NCBI GenBank assembly: GCA_017502165.1
Contig: JAFVVO010000036.1
Location: 1-41,530 of the forward strand
Source: Clostridia bacterium
GTDB lineage: Bacteria; Bacillota; Clostridia; Christensenellales; QALW01
Length of the DNA stretch: 41,530 nt
Direction of reading: 5' to 3'
In this document: positions 1 through 10,971 of the stretch, one piece after another
Layout: the number at the start of each line of letters is the position of its first letter
Position numbering within the stretch: position 1 is the first letter of the stretch
Notes under the pieces: model-generated
What the model was told of the DNA's origin: nothing
The model's database searches: none
Seen by the model: only the letters and a program-made list of their open reading frames with translations
Made by a program: the position numbers and the translations under genes

Positions 1-42
1 CACGTATTTACTGAAAAAACAGAACATGGAATTATTAAATAA
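1..42 (+). CDS. Possible C-terminal end of a gene cut by the window edge
   Basis: Frame 1 is open from the first base to a TAA at 40-42 (13 residues, ending HGIIK) and is followed about 55 bp later by a strong rightward intrinsic terminator. That fits the tail of a rightward gene lying outside the window, but 13 residues cannot identify a family and an open frame this short is expected by chance. Confidence 0.25.
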   Translation, partial: HVFTEKTEHGIIK

Positions 43-96
43 AACGATATAAAAAACGCGTAATTTTGTATAAGTTTGTAAAAAATAACGATTTTC

Positions 97-130
97 AACG
101 GAGAACACTGAGGTTCTCCGTTTTTTGTTT
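97..130 (+). terminator. Intrinsic terminator, rightward
   Basis: A 10-bp perfect stem (AACGGAGAAC / GTTCTCCGTT) with a 6-nt loop runs directly into a long T tract. It would end a rightward transcript entering from the left edge. Confidence 0.75.
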
Positions 131-182
131 TTTTTGATAACATCTGCGAAAAAGACGGTGCCTTAACTCAACATAAGTTTAT

Positions 183-220
183 AGAAAGCTCATCTTCTAT
201 TAAGGTGAGCTTTCTTTTCT
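183..220 (+). terminator. Second rightward terminator-like hairpin
   Basis: AGAAAGCTCA (183-192) pairs perfectly with TGAGCTTTCT (206-215) across a 13-nt loop and is followed by a T-rich stretch. It could be a backup terminator. The rest of 1-320 shows no convincing gene. Confidence 0.4.
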
Positions 221-320
221 GCGCCGAGCAAATATATGCTCTATTGATTTGTTGCTTAAAAATCTTAAGGCGCCATAATCGGCACTTATTGGTGGCCGGG
301 ACCAGCAATAGCTATAATCA

Positions 321-833
321 TCAACAGCGTTTTTTATTATTAAATTCATAATATGACGCCAAATAATCCTCTGGCATATCATAATCATTATATTCAATCC
401 ATAATGACACAACTTTTAAAAACCAAGTGGTATCATCCGGTAAACGTATCGTTCTTCCAAAAGCGTCAAACGTATTTTGATTATCCGGCGCTTCATATAC
501 GCCTTGTGAGGTTGGTTTGATACCATATCTTGCAAAAAACCTATCCATCACATCATAACACGCCTGGGCAGTATATCCTAATGCGCGTGCCTTTTCATCA
601 TCGAACCGCAAAATCATACGACGCATATCTTCTTTTTCTGCAAATTCGTGTAGAATCAAATAATCTTCTATATCACCATAGGCTTTCCAAAAATATGGTG
701 CAGGATTCAACCCTACTTTTCCGCAAGAACACCACATTATTGGTCCGGCGTAATCGCTTGGGTCACTGTAAAAGCGTTCTAATATTTCTCCGCAATGTTT
801 ACACGCAATGCGACAAATTTTCAAATACTCCAT
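321..833 (-). CDS. Two-domain hypothetical protein: zinc-ribbon-like N-terminus plus 'KARALGY' domain
   Basis: 170 aa, family not recognised. Residues 1-45 contain two cysteine pairs (CKHCG and WCSCG), suggesting a small zinc-binding domain; this half is clearly similar to the C-terminal part of the 1087-1587 protein (both have LER.Y.S..DY.G and C.CG motifs). The second half, from about residue 75, matches the whole 2403-2702 protein, sharing KARALGY, RFARYGI or LFARYGI, and QGVYEAPDNQNTF. The protein is therefore a fusion of two domains that also occur separately in the same operon. The ATG is preceded by GAGGA 8 nt upstream. It is the last gene of a seven-gene leftward operon, 3 nt after the previous stop. 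No function can be assigned. Confidence 0.75.
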   Translation of the reverse strand: MEYLKICRIACKHCGEILERFYSDPSDYAGPIMWCSCGKVGLNPAPYFWKAYGDIEDYLILHEFAEKEDMRRMILRFDDEKARALGYTAQACYDVMDRFFARYGIKPTSQGVYEAPDNQNTFDAFGRTIRLPDDTTWFLKVVSLWIEYNDYDMPEDYLASYYEFNNKKRC

Positions 834-836
834 TTC

Positions 837-1082
837 TTAATCCTCGTTAAATGCAGCGCGAAAGAGTGCATCCCCGTCTTTCTCCTGTCGCAACGGTTCC
901 CATACGCGCTCGTGTTCGGTACGCAGTTGCTCCAAGATATCATTGATAAACGGATCTTCGTCAAAAATCGGACGATATTGCCGTTGTAACCCTTCCAGAT
1001 TGTTAAGACACTGCTTGATACAGGCTGCTTTTCGTAGCTGGTTATGTGGCATTTTAAATAACTTTTCGATCTCTGTATCCAT
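837..1082 (-). CDS. Small hypothetical protein (81 aa)
   Basis: 81 aa, helical and charged, without cysteines suited to metal binding, signal peptide or membrane segment; not recognised. It starts at an ATG 4 nt after the stop of the 1087-1587 gene, with a GGGA-type ribosome binding site inside the end of that gene, and stops 3 nt before the next start. Tight coupling on both sides supports its being real. A longer overlapping frame (821-1096) is rejected as a shadow. Confidence 0.6.
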   Translation of the reverse strand: MDTEIEKLFKMPHNQLRKAACIKQCLNNLEGLQRQYRPIFDEDPFINDILEQLRTEHERVWEPLRQEKDGDALFRAAFNED

Positions 1083-1086
1083 AAAC

Positions 1087-1587
1087 TTATTCCCATTCTA
1101 CTTCATAATATTCTTCACAATCGGTTGTTGGGTCCACGTCATTGGTCCAGATCAGTCTCGGCCACAATGGACTTGGATCAAATGTAAACGCACCACACGT
1201 GCACGCCATCAACCCACCACCATAATCTTTCGGACTCTTGTATGTTCGCTCCAGTACCATACCGCAGCATTTGCAGGTAACACGACACAATTTATAATAC
1301 TTGACGTTTTTTTCACGCTCTCCCATACTTAACGTCTCTATCTGTCCAAACACAGGCGTATTGCGAATAAACGCATATTCCTTTGCACAGGGCACATGCT
1401 GGTTCAAACAAAGAGCATCTACCCGATGAAGCAGCCAAACCGCCTCCGGATACCATCCTTTTTTCCAAAAATGGTCGATTTCTTTCCGTGAAAGCACGTC
1501 TATTAAAAACTGAACCTCTCCACGTTCGGCAATGCAGCGTTCAATATTCGTTTGAAATAGCTTGTTTACAACAAACGGTAGAGTCAT
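1087..1587 (-). CDS. Hypothetical protein with C-terminal zinc-ribbon-like domain
   Basis: 166 aa. The C-terminal ~70 residues (CKCCG, then ACTCG) are paralogous to the N-terminal domain of the 321-833 protein. The N-terminal ~90 residues are a separate helical segment with a pattern like WLLHRVDAL...N..VP...EY..IR. I have a weak, unchecked memory of similar small helical proteins beside DUF3990/DUF3791 genes in Firmicutes. A clean GGAG lies 8 nt before the ATG. Cytosolic; no signal peptide or membrane segment. Function unknown. Confidence 0.7.
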   Translation of the reverse strand: MTLPFVVNKLFQTNIERCIAERGEVQFLIDVLSRKEIDHFWKKGWYPEAVWLLHRVDALCLNQHVPCAKEYAFIRNTPVFGQIETLSMGEREKNVKYYKLCRVTCKCCGMVLERTYKSPKDYGGGLMACTCGAFTFDPSPLWPRLIWTNDVDPTTDCEEYYEVEWE

Positions 1588-1599
1588 AAAAATACTCCT

Positions 1600-1893
1600 T
1601 TAATACAAATCCTCTGAATAGAGCTCACGCTCCATTTTTTCTTGTTTATACGTCAAGACGGTGTCTGAGAGCTGACCGCACTCGAGTGCGTGTTTAAAAG
1701 CATCCCTGCGGTTTAAAAACGCACCTTTATGATCTAAAAAGCCTTCGATTTCCTTGCGCTTACTTTTGGGAGGCAATTCAAGTACATGCATCAGTTCCCA
1801 ACAATTTGCGTGTCGGTGCCCGGAGATAATGGTTTGAATAGTTTTACCGTTCGCGTTGGTAAACGTAACGTCAATCGCTGCACAAATAATCAT
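1600..1893 (-). CDS. Hypothetical protein, phage-type 'GF.....F..R..A' pattern
   Basis: 97 aa from the ATG at 1893, chosen because an AGGAGG sits 5-6 nt upstream; the frame stays open to 1911, but the upstream ATG has no ribosome binding site. Residues around GFLDHKGAFLNRRDAFKHA resemble a motif of small phage and prophage proteins (GF.T..GRFV.R.EA..IA), and the protein has an RH..C segment. This is recollection of a pattern, not a domain assignment. It lies 12 nt upstream of the next gene in the operon. Confidence 0.65.
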   Translation of the reverse strand: MIICAAIDVTFTNANGKTIQTIISGHRHANCWELMHVLELPPKSKRKEIEGFLDHKGAFLNRRDAFKHALECGQLSDTVLTYKQEKMERELYSEDLY

Positions 1894-1903
1894 AAATTCC
1901 TCC

Positions 1904-2215
1904 TTACACAATCGTCTGATACCGGGTTTTCGGCGTAATCATCGACAAATCGCCCGAACTAAACCCGTCTAACGTAACCGAACCCACGACAAACAAACCG
2001 GGCAATCCCAGCTTGGAACGCGTTTCGATACGGCACCACACTTGGTACACGTTGCGTTTTTCATCCATCCAATAAAGCTCTGGCAACAAAAAATCCTTCT
2101 GCATCACTTCTACCGAGTATCCTTTAACTGCCTCCGGGAACGTCAGCTCGCTTTTTGTGGCCACCGCCTTCTCTACAGCTGCATATAAAGCGTTTTGTCT
2201 TTCTCTCTTGGTCAT
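1904..2215 (-). CDS. Hypothetical protein (103 aa)
   Basis: 103 aa, with a predicted mix of strand and helix, no signal peptide or transmembrane segment, not recognised. The start is supported by AAGGAG 6 nt before the ATG. The stop lies 10 nt before the next start. Part of the seven-gene leftward operon. Confidence 0.65.
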   Translation of the reverse strand: MTKRERQNALYAAVEKAVATKSELTFPEAVKGYSVEVMQKDFLLPELYWMDEKRNVYQVWCRIETRSKLGLPGLFVVGSVTLDGFSSGDLSMITPKTRYQTIV

Positions 2216-2225
2216 TTATTACTCC

Positions 2226-2393
2226 TTAAAACAAATTTTGCTCAATGGCCACCTTCTGCTTGCGCTGGAAGTGCCAATTCAGGATGCGGGCGTAAAACGA
2301 TTTCTCGTCATCGGAAGCAGCTTCCCGAATTAACGTCATCAGATCCTTGATGCTGAGCTCTTGCGCCTGCGCATACAAATTCTTCTGAGCCAT
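2226..2393 (-). CDS. Small hypothetical protein (55 aa)
   Basis: A 55-residue frame begins at the ATG at 2393 (MAQKNLYAQAQELS...) and ends at TAA 2226-2228. It has a helical, charged composition (SIKDLMTLIREAASDDEKSF). It fills the gap between two neighbouring operon genes exactly: 9 nt after the 2403-2702 stop and 10 nt before the next start. A short GGAGCAATC sequence upstream serves as ribosome binding site. The packing and codon pattern support a real gene. Function unknown. Confidence 0.65.
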   Translation of the reverse strand: MAQKNLYAQAQELSIKDLMTLIREAASDDEKSFYARILNWHFQRKQKVAIEQNLF

Positions 2394-2402
2394 GATTGCT
2401 CC

Positions 2403-2702
2403 TTATCTACCATTTATTTTAGCATATTTATAGTGAACCGCAAGGCAGTCACCCCAGCATCCATCCTCAAAAGAAGTCCATGAATCAATCACCTTCAGAA
2501 ACCAATCGTTATCAAATGGCAAACGTTGCGCCACGCCGAATGCAGTAAAGGTGTTTTGATTGTCTGGGGCTTCGTACACACCCTGGCTCGCCGGATAGAT
2601 ACCATACCTTGCAAAGAGTCTATTCACAGCTTCATAGCACGTTTGCGCTGAATAACCAAGCGCACGTGCTTTCTTATCATTAAATACAAATACCATAATC
2701 AT
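2403..2702 (-). CDS. Stand-alone 'KARALGY' domain protein (paralogue of 321-833 C-terminus)
   Basis: 99 aa, first gene of the seven-gene operon. Nearly the whole protein aligns with the second half of the 321-833 product, sharing KARALGYSAQTCYE, LFARYGI.P.SQGVYEAPDNQNTF and WFLKV. Such conservation in a short domain suggests a folded, selected unit. GGAGG lies 8 nt before the ATG at 2702; an in-frame ATG at 2696 is an alternative start. No known family recognised. Confidence 0.7.
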   Translation of the reverse strand: MIMVFVFNDKKARALGYSAQTCYEAVNRLFARYGIYPASQGVYEAPDNQNTFTAFGVAQRLPFDNDWFLKVIDSWTSFEDGCWGDCLAVHYKYAKINGR

Positions 2703-2722
2703 TTTAATTTCCTCCGTAAACC

Positions 2723-2771
2723 AAAAAAGCGCACTTCTCCCACCTTCAATAAGAAAGTAAGTGAAGTGCGC
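2723..2771 (-). terminator. Intrinsic terminator, leftward, between leader and operon
   Basis: On the minus strand a perfect 9-bp GC-rich stem (GCGCACTTC / GAAGTGCGC) is followed directly by TTTTTT. It sits between a strong upstream promoter and the first operon gene at 2702, so it either ends a small transcript or acts as an attenuator for the operon. Confidence 0.7.
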
Positions 2772-2801
2772 ATAATTGCTATACTTCGTGCAGAACAGGT
2801 A

Positions 2802-2909
2802 CTATCGTTCTGCTACTATACTGCGATCATATTTGAAACATACTATAAGCTTAAGCGTCCCGTTGCTCAATATGTTTCCACATTCGCCTGACCTTGCGAC
2901 GTAGTCCAT
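2802..2909 (-). CDS. Possible 35-aa leader peptide
   Basis: An ATG at 2909 has an excellent ribosome binding site (AGAGGA, 6-nt spacer) and opens a 35-codon frame (MDYVARSGECGNIL...) ending just before the leader hairpins. A competing frame in the same stretch encodes a very basic peptide (ERKRNKYGLRRKVRR) but lacks a good start. Either could be chance. Confidence 0.3.
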   Translation of the reverse strand: MDYVARSGECGNILSNGTLKLIVCFKYDRSIVAER

Positions 2910-3009
2910 ATTTGTTCCTCTTGCGTTCATTAAGCCGTCCGTCCCGGTCAAATCCTGAACACCGAACATATGACAATAAATTTGATATGCAGGGATTTAT
3001 TGCACAAAT

Positions 3010-3039
3010 ATAATACACTATACCGCACACTCTTGTCAA
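3010..3039 (-). promoter_or_regulatory. Sigma-A promoter, leftward
   Basis: The minus strand reads TTGACA (3034-3039), an 18-nt spacer and TATTAT (3010-3015). It overlaps the last codons of the exonuclease gene and points into the leader and the 2702-321 operon. Confidence 0.6.
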
Positions 3040-3551
3040 GAAATTATTTTCTTAAAACAAAACAACGTAGCTTTTGCATCCTCCAGACTGTCATGAGCGT
3101 TGAAGTTATAACCAAAGTACTGAGCACAAGACACAAGTTTTTGCACCTTTCCTTGATTGTATTGCGAAGCAAAGTGACGCATTACATCAAAATGCTCTTT
3201 GCACGATAAATCAATTCCGGCAGCAATTAAAAAACGAATATCGAAGCCACCGTTATATGAAACAATCAATGCTGCGTCGTTAAAAATTTTACGGACGAGA
3301 GGAAGTAATGTATGTAAATATGGTGCATTTTTAACAGTTTCCGGAGATATACCATGGACCTGTTGTGCATATTTCCATTCAGTTTTTCTGTAAGGTTTTA
3401 CATAGGAATTAAGCAATATATTGCCGTTTCCGTCTATTAAAGATATTTGAAGAATTTCATCACTTTTACTATCAAAGCCTATCGTCTCTAAATCAAAAGA
3501 AACCACTTTGTCCAAGTCTACCCTGTATTTATCAAGATCGCAATTTAACAT
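3036..3551 (-). CDS. DnaQ-like DEDDh 3'-5' exonuclease
   Basis: 171 aa, a single RNase T/DnaQ exonuclease domain. All DEDDh residues are visible: D20 and E22 in FDLET (Exo I), D104 in YNGGFD (Exo II), and H153 and D158 in HDSLED (Exo III). The family removes nucleotides from 3' ends of DNA or RNA with two metal ions and acts in proofreading, repair or DNA processing. A stand-alone copy without polymerase or helicase domains, next to an HTH gene and two transposases, suggests a processing role for the mobile element rather than replication proofreading; that is inference. The ribosome binding site is weak (AAGGA about 11 nt upstream). It probably forms a transcription unit with 3570-4028. Confidence 0.85.
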   Translation of the reverse strand: MLNCDLDKYRVDLDKVVSFDLETIGFDSKSDEILQISLIDGNGNILLNSYVKPYRKTEWKYAQQVHGISPETVKNAPYLHTLLPLVRKIFNDAALIVSYNGGFDIRFLIAAGIDLSCKEHFDVMRHFASQYNQGKVQKLVSCAQYFGYNFNAHDSLEDAKATLFCFKKIIS

Positions 3552-3569
3552 GCATGTTTTGTCCTTTTG

Positions 3570-4028
3570 TTACTGTTCTTTCTGTGAAGGATGATATCCC
3601 CCGTTACTTACTCTACCGTCTTTAGGATATGGTGTGTTTTGGGGAATCAACCATCCTGAACTTGTTTTATATGCCCCCTGTAAGCGTCCATCTGCACACA
3701 GTTTTTTTATGATCGCCCGACTTTTTTTGTGTAAATCCGCGTACTCACTTACGGAAACATATTTTTCTTGCAAAATTATGCTCGCAAAAGTATTTTCGTT
3801 TACGATAACAAGAGAACCCTTTTTATCTACATATGCTAATGTTTCTCCGCGAACATCTTCCATCTTCGCTATATTATTACTCCAATATTCATCAGAACCT
3901 TTAAATTCATTTGGATGTTTAAATCCGGTTAGCAGCGATGCTAAAACCTTTTCGTCGGCAACCAAAGTGGAACCATTGGAACACAATAATTTAAGTCCTG
4001 TTTTTGTTTTTATTAAACGTAATCTCAT
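3570..4028 (-). CDS. Excisionase-like HTH protein
   Basis: 152 aa. The C-terminal ~60 residues (SVSEYADLHKKSRAIIKKLCADGRLQGAY..SSGWLIP) have the winged-HTH pattern of MerR/excisionase (Xis)-type DNA-binding domains: helix, 'choose-the-site' helix, then a wing with a conserved Trp-Leu-Ile-Pro. The N-terminal 85 residues are beta-rich and not recognised. Such domains bend or mark DNA for site-specific recombination or regulate promoters. The gene diverges from the giant transposase with only 27 bp between the start codons, so it is a natural candidate to regulate or assist it. AAAGGA lies 8 nt before the ATG. Confidence 0.65.
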   Translation of the reverse strand: MRLRLIKTKTGLKLLCSNGSTLVADEKVLASLLTGFKHPNEFKGSDEYWSNNIAKMEDVRGETLAYVDKKGSLVIVNENTFASIILQEKYVSVSEYADLHKKSRAIIKKLCADGRLQGAYKTSSGWLIPQNTPYPKDGRVSNGGYHPSQKEQ

Positions 4029-4055
4029 AATTTTTTCCTTTCTATAGAGGTGTAT

Positions 4056-6551
4056 ATGAATAAAAATCTTTTTAATACAATTTCTTCCGAAATCGAGCAG
4101 GTGCTTTGGCGTTTTAAAAACGAGGTTTCATCAGCAAACCTTGAGCTACAGAAAAAATATATTTTAGAAGACAGTCCTTATTCAAAATGCATTAATGACG
4201 CAATTTCCAGCTATGCAGAATTCCTTTTTTATTATAACTTAAAGCTTAAGGAAGCGTTTGTTACTCGTCCAAGCTTGATAAAAGAGTTGGATCTGGATTT
4301 ATGGGTGTCTTGCGAAAACAAAACAAACCGAGAGCTTCTTGAAGAAGGCAAATCACCATACGCCTACGATTCCGAAGGTGGAAAAATCGAAATACATCAC
4401 ATCGGACAACAATATGATTCTCCATTTGCAGAATTAACCATTGATGAGCATAGTCTTGAGGGAAATAGCAAATTGCTGCATGAGATTCAGGAAAATAGCT
4501 GGCGTAATCAAGAACAACTAAAAAACAAATTTTATACAGAAAAAGCACACTATTGGAAGTTGCGTGCTTCCGGAACAATCAATTTAAGCAGTGGTGTAAA
4601 ATTTAAAAAGCTTCCACATAGAAGCTTCAGTACGCCGGAAGAAATTTCTCAAAAATTAAAAGTAATTATTGAATATTTGTTTTCCGAAGCTTCTATTGAG
4701 GATTTGAATTATATCAGCAATTTAGCCGAAAGCTACGCTTTAGTAAAAGAAATAGGTGTAAAATCCATCAGCGAATTTGTTAACAAGGAAAGACAAGACA
4801 CTCCTATCGTCTGTACGTTTTGCGGAGAGTCCGATTGTATTTCTCATGGAAGTTATAAAACATCGGGAGAAAAAATTAAAAGATATAAATGTCGAAAGTG
4901 CGGCAAAGTATTTACACAAGTTAATAACTCTATTATTTCCGGCAGCAATCTATCATTTATAGAATGGATGAGGTTTATCGATTGCCTCTTTAACGGGTTT
5001 TCTGTTGCTAAAACTGCAAAAATCTGCAACTTAAGTGAGCGTAGCGTGCAAACAAATAGATATAAACTTTTTTATGCCTTGAAATGCCTTGACGACGAAA
5101 TAGTCTTACACGACAACGTTGTTTTGGACGAAACATATTTCACCGTGAGTTATAAAGGTAATCACTCTGCCAATCCAACGATTATTCCCCGAAAATCAAG
5201 AAAACGTGGTGGCGAAAACCATGTCCCCGGAACATCTAAAGAAAAGGTTTGTGTTGCCTGCGCATTAGATGACAACGGTATATCTATTGCGCGAGTTTGC
5301 GGTTTGGGAAGTCCTACTACAAAGAAATTATCTTATACGCTCTCTTCGGCATTAAAATCGGAAAACATAGACACTTTGTATGCAGACAAAGAAACATCGA
5401 TTCAACTCTTTGCACAAGAAAATCAAATTAATTTAAAATCTGCAAAATTATTACGAAAAGGAAATCAACGTGCAACAAATCAAATAGTTAATAAAGATGT
5501 TTTATTAACAAACAAGTATCTGCAAAAAATGAACTCGTATCACAAACGATTACATTCATTTATAGACAAATTTTCAGGTATATCGAGTGCAAATTTGGCG
5601 GGATACGTTTACTTATTTGCATGGAAAGAAAGAAATAAAAACAGAGATAAAAACGAAGCTTATCGTGAGTTATTTGCAAAAATGACAGAAAGAAATACGC
5701 ATATTTCCTATGACGAGATTTGTTCGGGTCTGTTTTTACCAAATCCTTTTAGAATAGATGCTGTAAAAAAGGATATTTTTCGCAATCAAAAACGAGCAGA
5801 TGAGATATATGCGTTGTATGCCGAAGGAATGCTTCATAAGGAAATTGCAAAAATATATTCTATGACTAATCAAGGAATTGGTCGTATTATTCGTAAATAC
5901 AGTGCTTCACATTTGGCATATTCAACAAAAAAAGATAAAGAAAAAGAAGAAAAACTCTTAAAAAAGGCAATGCCTAGAGGCTACCGAATAAACTATGCTG
6001 AAAAATTTGTTAAATTATATTACGAGCGAAAAGCGTGGACCGGCAACCCTAAAGAGTTTTATGAAAATAAAGCAAGAGAGCACAACCTGTCTAAGCAAAC
6101 TATTAAATCAAGAATAGCAAAAGGTCAGCGAATTGTTGATTTAAAGGATGCTTTTTTTATTACTGATACTTTTGAATATGCGAGCTTAAAACAAGTGTAT
6201 AACAATATTTATGATGAGTTTAACTATTTGAAAGCACAAAATATACCCAAACTTCAATGTTACGATATGTTAGCCGAGAAATATAACTATGAATGTCATA
6301 ATATAATGCGAATAATTGGCATTATGAAAAAAGATACAACTAAATATTTTGGCCGAGAAAACATACGGTTGACTCACGCGGAGTCAATAAACAGAGATAA
6401 AGCTGTGTTTATCGATTATCTGCATTGGAAAGGCTCGCGTGAAAACTTCTGTATTTGGGCATCCGAAAAATACAAATTATCAAAATATTATGTAAACGAA
6501 ATTATTCACTATTGTTTGTCTGCAGATATAAAAAGATACGATATGCTTTAA
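4056..6551 (+). CDS. HNH/ENDO VII-like nuclease fused to IS1595-type transposase with C-terminal HTH segments
   Basis: 831 aa from the ATG at 4056 (AGAGG, 5-nt spacer); an in-frame GTG at 4050 overlaps that ribosome binding site and is less likely. Layout seen: residues ~95-175 carry IEIHHIGQ (H114, H115), DSPFAELT, an isolated H132 and a LLH (H142), the pattern of LHH-type HNH/ENDO VII nucleases; ~253-282 is a CxxC...CxxC zinc ribbon; ~355-540 is an IS1595-type catalytic core with LDETYF (D358), YADK (D444) and MNSYH (N493, H496), consistent with the DDN clade; ~580-615 is a sigma-region-4-like HTH (LYAEGMLHKEIAKIY), followed by at least two more HTH-like segments to the end. IS1595 transposases are normally ~300-350 aa, so nearly 500 residues are extra. 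Its stop overlaps the convergent 6548-7600 gene. AT-rich compared with the chromosome to the right. Confidence 0.8.
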   Translation: MNKNLFNTISSEIEQVLWRFKNEVSSANLELQKKYILEDSPYSKCINDAISSYAEFLFYYNLKLKEAFVTRPSLIKELDLDLWVSCENKTNRELLEEGKSPYAYDSEGGKIEIHHIGQQYDSPFAELTIDEHSLEGNSKLLHEIQENSWRNQEQLKNKFYTEKAHYWKLRASGTINLSSGVKFKKLPHRSFSTPEEISQKLKVIIEYLFSEASIEDLNYISNLAESYALVKEIGVKSISEFVNKERQDTPIVCTFCGESDCISHGSYKTSGEKIKRYKCRKCGKVFTQVNNSIISGSNLSFIEWMRFIDCLFNGFSVAKTAKICNLSERSVQTNRYKLFYALKCLDDEIVLHDNVVLDETYFTVSYKGNHSANPTIIPRKSRKRGGENHVPGTSKEKVCVACALDDNGISIARVCGLGSPTTKKLSYTLSSALKSENIDTLYADKETSIQLFAQENQINLKSAKLLRKGNQRATNQIVNKDVLLTNKYLQKMNSYHKRLHSFIDKFSGISSANLAGYVYLFAWKERNKNRDKNEAYRELFAKMTERNTHISYDEICSGLFLPNPFRIDAVKKDIFRNQKRADEIYALYAEGMLHKEIAKIYSMTNQGIGRIIRKYSASHLAYSTKKDKEKEEKLLKKAMPRGYRINYAEKFVKLYYERKAWTGNPKEFYENKAREHNLSKQTIKSRIAKGQRIVDLKDAFFITDTFEYASLKQVYNNIYDEFNYLKAQNIPKLQCYDMLAEKYNYECHNIMRIIGIMKKDTTKYFGRENIRLTHAESINRDKAVFIDYLHWKGSRENFCIWASEKYKLSKYYVNEIIHYCLSADIKRYDML

Positions 6552-7600
6552 GCTACACATGGTATCGGGGGTACATTAATAATATCTTCAACTCGCAAGT
6601 AAGATCCACTTAACTTAATAGAATTATATAATTCATTTGCAAAATCTATATTCTTTTCCTTTTTATGATTTTCAAGCCAGATATACAGATTTACATAATT
6701 GTTTAAATATTTTGTGGCAACGCCATTGTAGTTTCTCATAAATGTTCTAAAACGCCTATGCAAATTATTTACGTTTTGTAAATGATAAACGCCTTTTATT
6801 TCCGGCGGACTGGTATTATCCTTGGAAATAGTGTGCGCTGCAGTTTGAACTAACTCAATGTTAGTACCGTCAAAATACTTTTTTGTGCTATGTGCTTTAT
6901 CTGCGACAACGATAGTATCCTCTAAAAGACGATCTCCAAATGCATACGCAAGCATATCGCAATTAGCTGCACCGATACCCAAAACCTCGCCGTATACGTG
7001 ACCTTTTCGTTCAACTGCACACATGACACAAGCTTTACTACCTAATTTGCCTGCGTTGTCTGTTCCGCGCTTAAAAGCTTCGCGAGGCATAACAAATTTT
7101 TTGCTTTTTGTGTGGTTCCCTTTATAACTAACAGAAAAAAACATATCATCGGCTTCTACAATGCCACTCATAAACCGATTTTCTTGATCTCTTTGAAGAA
7201 GACCCAATATTTTATGTCGCCACAAAAACGCAGTGCGAACACTAATGCCACATTCTGAAGCACATTTTTCAAGAGAGCATCTGGATAATAATAAGGGAAT
7301 GTATTTCTTCCAAACATCAGGCGCACAATGGGAATGTGCAAATGCGGAAAAGGACGTGCTTGTAAAAGTACATCCGCAGGATCTACATCTATATCTCTGT
7401 TTGCCGTTCTTATCTTTTCCGAACTTTGCAATTTGAGAGCTCTCGCATTTTCGGCATGTAACAATTTGTGATTCTTGAAAACTCTCTTCTGTAGAATCCT
7501 CAACCTGTTGAAGAAGTTCAAAAATCCTATCTGCGATTGACTTCAACTCAGAACTATTAAGGTTGCCTATCTCATTGTAAACAGTATTAAATCTTCCCAT
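6548..7600 (-). CDS. IS1595-family transposase
   Basis: 350 aa, full length. Zinc ribbon CRKC (49-52) and CRSC (72-75), an HTH-like region around residues 105-130, then the catalytic core: EADDMFF (D151), VVADK (D234) and VNNLHRRF (N278, H281) followed by GVATKYLNNYVNLY, which I recognise as typical of the DDN-type IS1595 clade. It shares VSYKGNH with the 831-aa protein, so the two are distant relatives. The last 4 bp overlap the end of that gene tail-to-tail, so this is not a simple IS with its own ends between them. The start ATG at 7600 has AGAGAGG 5 nt upstream. It may move the locus in trans or together with its giant neighbour. Confidence 0.9.
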   Translation of the reverse strand: MGRFNTVYNEIGNLNSSELKSIADRIFELLQQVEDSTEESFQESQIVTCRKCESSQIAKFGKDKNGKQRYRCRSCGCTFTSTSFSAFAHSHCAPDVWKKYIPLLLSRCSLEKCASECGISVRTAFLWRHKILGLLQRDQENRFMSGIVEADDMFFSVSYKGNHTKSKKFVMPREAFKRGTDNAGKLGSKACVMCAVERKGHVYGEVLGIGAANCDMLAYAFGDRLLEDTIVVADKAHSTKKYFDGTNIELVQTAAHTISKDNTSPPEIKGVYHLQNVNNLHRRFRTFMRNYNGVATKYLNNYVNLYIWLENHKKEKNIDFANELYNSIKLSGSYLRVEDIINVPPIPCVA

Positions 7601-7776
7601 AAAAACCTCTCTTAAATATCTACAATTATATTATAGCCGATTGGCAACAATTTGTCAATAGGAAATTGTATAAAAATTCAGTTTTTTCAAGGGTTTTGGC
7701 AAAAAATTGGCTCTGTCAACAATTAAGTTCAATATAGCCAATTTCAAGGACAGATAAATAATGCTTGAAAAAATCG
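7601..7776. other. Gene-free stretch with inverted repeats
   Basis: No coding frame. AAATTGGCT (7704-7712) and AGCCAATTT (7736-7744) form a 9-bp inverted repeat, and a related GCCGATTGGC lies near 7636. This could be the edge or promoter of the transposase locus. Clear terminal inverted repeats for an IS were not found. Confidence 0.3.
7755..7772 (+). repeat. 18-bp direct repeat, left copy
   Basis: TAAATAATGCTTGAAAAA occurs here and again exactly at 9839-9856, where it contains the -35 box of the kinase promoter. The two copies bracket the lipoprotein and immunity-protein genes. Here no -10 box follows. Confidence 0.5.
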
Positions 7777-9915: not shown

Positions 9916-10971
9916 ATGAAAGATTTTTCAAACGTATTAAAGAACTTTGGTTTTCCTGAAGACAGCACAATGATTCCTTGGGGTAACGGCCACATTAACG
10001 ATACCTTCAGGGTTAATGACGAGTATCTTCTTCAAAGAATAAATACCAATGTGTTCAAGGACCCTAAAGGCTTAATGAACAACATTTATCTCGTAACGGA
10101 TTTCCTTTCTAAGAGAATCGTTGCGGCAGGGGGCGACCCTAAGCGCGAAACTCTTACCATCGTTAAAACTGTTGACGGCGAGCTTTTCTTTACTGACGAC
10201 GACGGCAAGGCTTACAGAATGTATCTCTTTATTGATAACACCCTGAGCCTTGATAAAGTAGAAGAAAAGGAAGATTTCTATTCTTGCGGCTTCGGCTTTG
10301 GTGACTTCCAAAGACAGCTCGGCGAGTTCGATGCTTCACTTTTAACAGAAACTATTGTAAATTTCCACAACACCCTTGCCCGCTTTGAAACCTTTGAAAA
10401 GGCAATAGCAGATAATAAATCAGGCAGACGTGATTTGGTTCAGGCTGAAATTGATTTTGCCCTTGCCCGCAAAGGCTTGGTTGAAGATATTATGGACAGA
10501 TATTCACGTCTTCCCTTGCGAGTAACCCATAACGATACCAAGCTTAACAACGTTTTGTTTGACGAAAAAACACGCAAGCCTCTTTGCGTAATCGACCTTG
10601 ACACCGTTATGCCCGGCAAGGCGGCAAACGATTTTGGTGACGCCGTTCGTTTCGGCGCTTCCACCGCCGCAGAGGACGAAACGGATTTATCAAAGGTTCA
10701 TTTTGATATTGAGCTTTACCGTGCCTTCGCCCAAGGCTTCCTTGCAGGCTGCGGAAACGTTTTAGGCGAAGAAGAACGCATTTCCCTTGCTTACGGTTGC
10801 ATTTTAATGACCTTTGAATGCGGTATGCGCTTCTTAACCGACCACCTGGAAGGCGACACCTACTTCAAGATACATAGAGAAAACCACAACCTTGACAGAT
10901 GCCGTACACAGTTTAAGCTTGTTTCCGAAATGGAACAACAGCTTGACAAAATGATTGAAATAGTGAAATAA
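9916..10971 (+). CDS. N-acetylhexosamine 1-kinase-like (APH-fold) kinase
   Basis: 351 aa, close to NahK length. An aminoglycoside-phosphotransferase fold is shown by the catalytic loop VTHNDTKLNNVLFD (D207) and the metal site CVIDLDTVMPG (D227). The N-terminal PWGNGHINDTF segment is typical of NahK-like kinases, often mis-annotated 'mucin desulfatase'. NahK phosphorylates GlcNAc or GalNAc at C1 with ATP, feeding sugars from mucin or milk glycans into UDP-sugar metabolism. No lacto-N-biose phosphorylase or transporter is beside it, so the substrate is inferred. The start follows AGAAAGG. Monocistronic, with its own promoter and terminator. Confidence 0.8.
   Translation: MKDFSNVLKNFGFPEDSTMIPWGNGHINDTFRVNDEYLLQRINTNVFKDPKGLMNNIYLVTDFLSKRIVAAGGDPKRETLTIVKTVDGELFFTDDDGKAYRMYLFIDNTLSLDKVEEKEDFYSCGFGFGDFQRQLGEFDASLLTETIVNFHNTLARFETFEKAIADNKSGRRDLVQAEIDFALARKGLVEDIMDRYSRLPLRVTHNDTKLNNVLFDEKTRKPLCVIDLDTVMPGKAANDFGDAVRFGASTAAEDETDLSKVHFDIELYRAFAQGFLAGCGNVLGEEERISLAYGCILMTFECGMRFLTDHLEGDTYFKIHRENHNLDRCRTQFKLVSEMEQQLDKMIEIVK

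Follow-up and report, generated by a model that had tools for sequence, protein, structure and literature searches.

The window analysed here, a stretch of 41,530 nucleotides that comprises positions 1-41,530 (forward strand) of contig JAFVVO010000036.1 (assembly GCA_017502165.1; Clostridia bacterium; Christensenellales; QALW01), encodes a protein of 831 amino acids (aa) in which an LHH-type nuclease domain is joined to a transposase of the IS1595 family and to a tail with helix-turn-helix (HTH) modules. The gene is part of a conserved three-gene module, which lies immediately within one terminus of a large transposon. This element and its relatives form a new group of large transposons of the IS1595 family, in which a second transposase is fused to a nuclease. 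The LHH domain most likely provides a second DNA cut during transposition, and analogy with TnsA of Tn7 suggests which cut this might be. The fuller proposal, that the fusion is a core transposition protein of the large element and that LHH would supply an additional, TnsA-like cut of the donor, has in our judgement about an even chance of being right. An original prediction, made from the DNA letters, had guessed at such a second cutting activity, and this guess appears to be the best reading of the context; the module and the transposon, which extend outside positions 4056-6551, lie beyond what it had claimed.

The domains named in the original prediction were all recovered. The open frame of a mechanical scan begins with a GTG at position 4050, while the ATG at 4056 has a better-placed AGAGGTG (Table 1). 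For the N-terminal region, described as HNH/Endo VII (LHH-like), the Pfam family LHH (PF14411) matches residues 90-171 with 59.6 bits (E 3.5e-16; curated cut-off 23.3). The residues reported as conserved in Tox-LHH domains are N, [LI]HH, E, H, H and W (PMC3482391). Every one of them is retained in the fusion and in all homologues, and N91, H114, H115, E126, H132, H142 and W167 are invariant across four full-length fusions. The IS1595 transposase family NF033547 (NCBIfam) matches residues 297-527 with 80.4 bits (cut-off 75). The catalytic triad of two aspartates and an asparagine (DDN) falls at exactly the predicted residues, D358, D444 and N493, which align to columns invariant in eight IS1595-type transposases, and the predicted zinc-ribbon cysteines (C253, C256, C279, C282) likewise match positions that do not vary among other transposases of the IS1595 type. 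HTH-like modules are found at residues ~312-343 and, as foreseen for the region after the core, at ~577-620. The two profile matches and the conservation in homologues thus support the joining of a nuclease to an IS1595 transposase; the description of the latter as a cut-and-paste enzyme needs a caveat, since this mode is not established for IS1595 and replicative excision has been suggested (PMC5704250).

In predicted models, residues 351-509 adopt a retroviral-integrase fold (VIA-align Z about 10, best 10.6), and residues 578-831 are all-helical with HTH-like modules (predicted local distance difference test, pLDDT, about 85). The full-length model is poor over the LHH region, because the alignment had only six rows. 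Folded alone from 44 rows, the LHH domain reaches a pLDDT of 94.4, and its HH strand, second strand and following helix resemble a beta-beta-alpha finger. A second look at this model with VIA-align against solved folds gave no match.

To judge from the sequences, the fusion is neither an assembly accident nor a product of chance, since three other Clostridia genomes encode the full-length layout (L018, L019 and L020; 41-46% identity) and a fourth encodes a two-gene version. The latter (L021, genome G600) consists of a 174-aa LHH open reading frame (ORF) and a 657-aa transposase ORF, with about 25% identity, which shows that LHH is linked to the transposase also as a separate partner and not through covalent fusion alone. 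The prediction could have failed on two points chosen beforehand, the lack of any HNH/Endo VII match in the N-terminal region and the loss of the histidines in homologues, and it failed on neither. All homologues keep the histidines together with the other LHH residues and the DDN residues, and all exceed both family cut-offs (LHH scores 46.9-65.2 bits). The LHH region is the best-conserved part of the full-length fusions by alignment: its mean pairwise identity is 54.5%, compared with 48.5% in the DDN core and 37% at the C-terminus. Set beside 39 other sampled LHH domains, those of the fusions fall into a single clade. The transposase domains of the fusions likewise group together, separate from ordinary IS1595 transposases and from the partner transposase encoded next to the fusion. 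Among 86 LHH loci examined, the domain is found at the C-terminal end in 81. An IS1595 gene is present in the fetched flanks of the four fusion-type loci and of no others. Two other N-terminal LHH proteins (L051 and L066) were discarded as candidates; they have glycine-rich, membrane-like tails and no transposase.

The relatives were found by a profile anchored on the LHH motif, which yielded 4 loci in a scan of 84,980 species and detects only loci with an intact [IY]E[LI]HHIGQ peptide. A single-protein query over genome and viral collections returned no relatives, because the peptide patterns used were unconserved. Apart from the window's own genome, the fusion is absent from ~1000 genomes sampled at the level of phylum, class, order and family, and viral contigs, phages and plasmids contained only standalone LHH or ordinary IS1595 genes. 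The fusion family is rare. The window's genome is a draft of 44 contigs (G000), and the records of the four relatives are labelled as metagenome-assembled genomes.

All five loci contain the same block in constant order: an HTH gene that diverges from the fusion, the fusion itself, and a separate IS1595 transposase (the partner) that is convergent with it. The HTH gene encodes ~150 aa and the partner ~350 aa across the loci. Compared to the window's copies, identity amounts to 36-48% for the HTH protein and, for the partner, to 51-60% among the four close loci and 41% in L021. The window's partner scores 133.7 bits against NF033547 (cut-off 75), the stop codon of the partner abuts or overlaps that of the fusion in all five loci, and the DDN triad is intact in both transposases at every locus.

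In four loci, a conserved repeat starting with GGCT terminates the sequence upstream of the partner transposase. The element of genome G599 (contig C10, 79550-93612) spans 14.1 kb, has inverted repeats identical at 25 of 25 positions and is flanked by a perfect 8-bp duplication, CCGGTGGG (8/8). The G597 element (contig C28, 10092-31350) spans 21.3 kb, with repeats agreeing at 23 of 25 positions and an equally perfect 8-bp duplication, AAATTTTT (8/8). The left end of the window element was searched for inside the window and is absent there; it was later located at position 122393 of contig C26 from the same genome, preceded by AATTTCAA. A genus relative (G398) has the empty site: there the GTPase gene of the left flank is the immediate neighbour of the kinase gene that occupies 9916-10971 of the window, and C26 and the window contig therefore represent one locus. 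A comparable blind scan for end pairs on the G600 contig gave 26/33 for the best arbitrary pair, versus 31-33/33 for the called ends. About 100-140 bp inside both ends lies a palindrome (AGCCAATCGGCT or TATCCAATCGGATA), the sequence of which co-varies between the two ends of one element and which, at the right end, overlaps the partner's promoter. The insertion sites of the four delimited loci are unrelated to each other. Two of the transposons are inserted in palindromic, repeat-like intergenic DNA of the CACCTTCTCC...GGAGAAGG type (L020, 8734-8860 and 9384-9410; L019, 8231-8290).

Table 1. Coordinates, in the window, of the fusion gene, its domains and the surrounding transposon
Feature	Position	Strand	Remarks
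LHH-IS1595-HTH fusion transposase	4056..6551	+	831 aa; ATG 4056, stop 6551
LHH (HNH/Endo VII) nuclease domain	4323..4568	+	residues 90-171; profile match and predicted beta-beta-alpha finger
CxxC...CxxC zinc ribbon	4812..4901	+	residues 253-282; C253/C256, C279/C282
DDN (RNase H-like) catalytic core	5106..5582	+	residues 351-509; D358/D444/N493
C-terminal all-helical region with HTH-like modules	5787..6548	+	residues 578-831
HTH/excisionase-like protein, 152 aa	3570..4028	-	divergent from fusion, 27 bp between starts; conserved in five loci
Ordinary-size IS1595 transposase (partner), 350 aa, DDN intact	6548..7600	-	convergent; stop codon overlaps that of the fusion by 4 nt
Palindrome AGCCGATTGGC	7635..7646	.	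in promoter of partner transposase; similar palindrome ~140 bp in from the left end
Right terminal inverted repeat GGCTATATTGAACTTAATTGTTGAC	7715..7739	-	outer end 7739; 23/25 versus left end on C26
8-bp target-site duplication AATTTCAA	7740..7747	.	identical copy at C26:122385-122392, before left end
Right part of window transposon	1..7739	.	rest is C26:122393-129582 plus an unassembled gap
Cargo: small zinc-ribbon/unknown proteins and DEDDh exonuclease (3036-3551)	1..3551	-	

Besides the three-gene block, nothing is common to all five elements, and the remainder is cargo. A cassette with a TraD/VirD4-like ATPase (147.9 bits to TrwB_AAD_bind) is found in the window and G599 elements (L115:14041-16588; L107:9012-10879). 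This ATPase gene adjoins a putative toxin gene and, in the window element, also a weakly immunity-factor-like gene. G600 encodes a NikA-like protein with a homologue in the G599 element, and RHS proteins are among the cargo of G597 and G598. Just inside the left end of the window element, a defence-associated reverse transcriptase (PADLOC RT_VI, 224 bits) is encoded at C26:122615-123607 (L115). The DEDDh exonuclease gene adjoins the HTH gene, and no homologue of it was found among the other four elements. The small cargo proteins at 321-833, 1087-1587 and 2403-2702 have cysteine motifs or an EAPDNQNTF.AFG stretch in common, as though they had arisen by duplication. Beside the split locus of G600 lie a retron-like reverse transcriptase gene (RT_Ec107-like, 386 bits) and VWA-like and MoxR-like genes (L111:13654-17205). 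Neither the fusion nor the partner transposase matched an entry in PADLOC. The reverse transcriptase, RHS, toxin-like and coupling-ATPase genes suggest that conflict genes are moved among gut Clostridia by these elements.

How might such an element move? The two DDN proteins would assemble on the transposon ends, cleave the 3' strands and link them to the target at positions 8 bp apart. Tethered to this complex, the LHH nuclease would make an extra cut in the donor, most likely of the 5' strands at the ends, such that the 14-21 kb element could be released cleanly as duplex DNA rather than move by replication. An HNH-type nuclease from the pool of polymorphic toxins would thereby do the job that TnsA does beside TnsB. 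The C-terminal HTH modules may read the end or target sequence, and the product of the divergent HTH gene may act as a regulator or as an accessory end-binding factor. Cut-and-paste transposition of Tn7 relies on TnsA-TnsB, which severs both strands at each transposon end (PMC8188705).

Several points weigh against the proposal of a TnsA-like donor cut. The strand and the site of the LHH cut are not visible from sequence, and IS1595 elements of the ordinary kind do without such a nuclease when they move and may excise replicatively via circles (PMC5704250). Colicin E7 ranked first for LHH in a profile search (E 0.03-0.1) and in Foldseek (E 7.4), in both cases far below significance; as it is the sole named structural neighbour, the claim for the LHH fold rests on the family profile. 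The ends of the split-version element were not found in a scan of its contig in G600. The main contrary point is a tyrosine recombinase in two of the three well-delimited elements, intact in G599 (L107:6573-7661) and broken into two ORFs in G597 (L109:16429-17531). This enzyme could be a cointegrate resolvase and would therefore point to replicative transposition with resolution. In the assembled genome of the window it has no close homologue.

The same features invite other explanations. The fusion occurs in one copy per genome, in line with a single copy of the element, and its nuclease is tethered to HTH modules that would read sequence; LHH might hence cut the donor site once the element has left it, or an allele without the insertion, with repair restoring or spreading the element, as for TnpB or IscB beside TnpA or for a homing endonuclease. 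Yet the unrelated insertion sites of the four delimited loci argue against a fixed homing site, and signs of a guide RNA system are absent, although no search for RNA was made, which leaves retention or homing unlikely. It is improbable that LHH acts in a structure-specific manner and resolves branched strand-transfer or cointegrate intermediates like T4 endonuclease VII: while the domain is grouped in the HNH/Endo VII fold (Pfam name; PMC3482391), known Tox-LHH domains are toxin nucleases, and two complete elements carry a tyrosine recombinase that could resolve cointegrates. The toxicity of the LHH family elsewhere, where the domain otherwise resides at toxin tips (PMC3482391), raises the quite improbable scenario of a toxin, addiction or competition module, in which LHH would harm element-free cells or cut rival DNA and the transposase would serve as the carrier. 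No conserved immunity gene lies beside the fusion, however, in contrast to the SMI1/SUKH-like neighbours of standalone LHH genes, and the domain is N-terminal, lacks secretion domains and is co-conserved with an intact DDN core. Two standalone LHH toxin genes (L007 and L010) are situated between a HerA-like ATPase gene and an SMI1/KNR4-like immunity gene.

Conjugative mobilisation, with LHH as a non-canonical relaxase or nickase that nicks an origin, would accommodate the coupling ATPase of the G599 and window elements, the NikA-like homologue of G599 and the lack of a recognised relaxase within the complete G599 element. We consider it very improbable, as the ATPase cassette is missing from G597 and adjoins toxin/immunity-like genes, and thus looks like cargo, whereas the fusion is present regardless. 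Hardly more credible is that the fusion is an ordinary IS1595 transposase with a non-functional acquired domain, or that it lies next to a separate insertion sequence (IS) by chance. The nuclease function of LHH is predicted, but its residues are invariant at 41-46% identity and it is the most conserved region of the fusion; a chance association is at odds with five loci that form one clade with one gene order and abutting stop codons.

If LHH does make the second donor cut, a point mutant would test whether the addition of a nuclease is what makes a DDE/N transposon change from replicative to cut-and-paste transposition, an issue until now bound up with Tn7 and its kin. The fusion also illustrates how a toxin nuclease family is co-opted into a transposition machine, and how the transposase family of a small IS has come to serve elements of 14-21 kb, with a conserved module of several genes.

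The elements share with IS1595 insertion sequences and their passenger-carrying forms (MTnSag1/tISSag10, tISCpe8) a zinc ribbon followed by a DDN core, 25-bp inverted repeats starting with GG and 8-bp duplications (PMC5704250, PMC8101967). Profile and triad place them in this family, and GG-ended repeats with an 8-bp duplication are found in three elements. IS1595 elements usually have a single transposase gene (PMC8101967), whereas every element described here has two, one of which is fused to a nuclease and bears a long HTH tail; they further differ by an extra HTH gene and by a size of 14-21 kb as opposed to 1-2 kb. Polymorphic toxins are, for the most part, the only proteins in which LHH has been reported (PMC3482391). 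The fusion has the nuclease domain of the Tox-LHH toxins (PF14411), including their N, LHH, E, H, H and W residues, but its LHH lies at the N-terminus of a transposase, in a separate clade, with neither a secretion domain nor a conserved immunity gene nearby, and on this architecture a polymorphic toxin was rejected. A literature search that left out most subscription papers found no described HNH-IS1595 layout.

In casposons of families 2 and 3, an HNH nuclease and HTH proteins are conserved beside the integrase and have been proposed to cooperate with it (PMC4046053). The casposon integrase is Cas1, accompanied by PolB, while in the elements described here a DDN transposase has the nuclease fused to it. 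The likeness to Tn7 is one of analogy only: in both cases, one end of a large, cargo-carrying transposon encodes a nuclease and a DDE-type transposase. TnsA can also be fused to TnsB. Tn7 employs the restriction-type TnsA and TnsB, the elements described here an HNH-type LHH domain and IS1595 transposases; unlike in Tn7, neither a TnsC ATPase nor a TnsD/TniQ target selector was seen, and the insertion sites differ. By membership the elements are outside the Tn7-like group, and the resemblance lies in how they might work. It is conceivable, if somewhat short of an even chance, that they represent an independent invention of the Tn7 principle, in which a toxin-derived HNH/Endo VII nuclease was joined to one of two IS1595-type transposases and the resulting heteromeric, two-nuclease machine turned a small IS into large cargo transposons.
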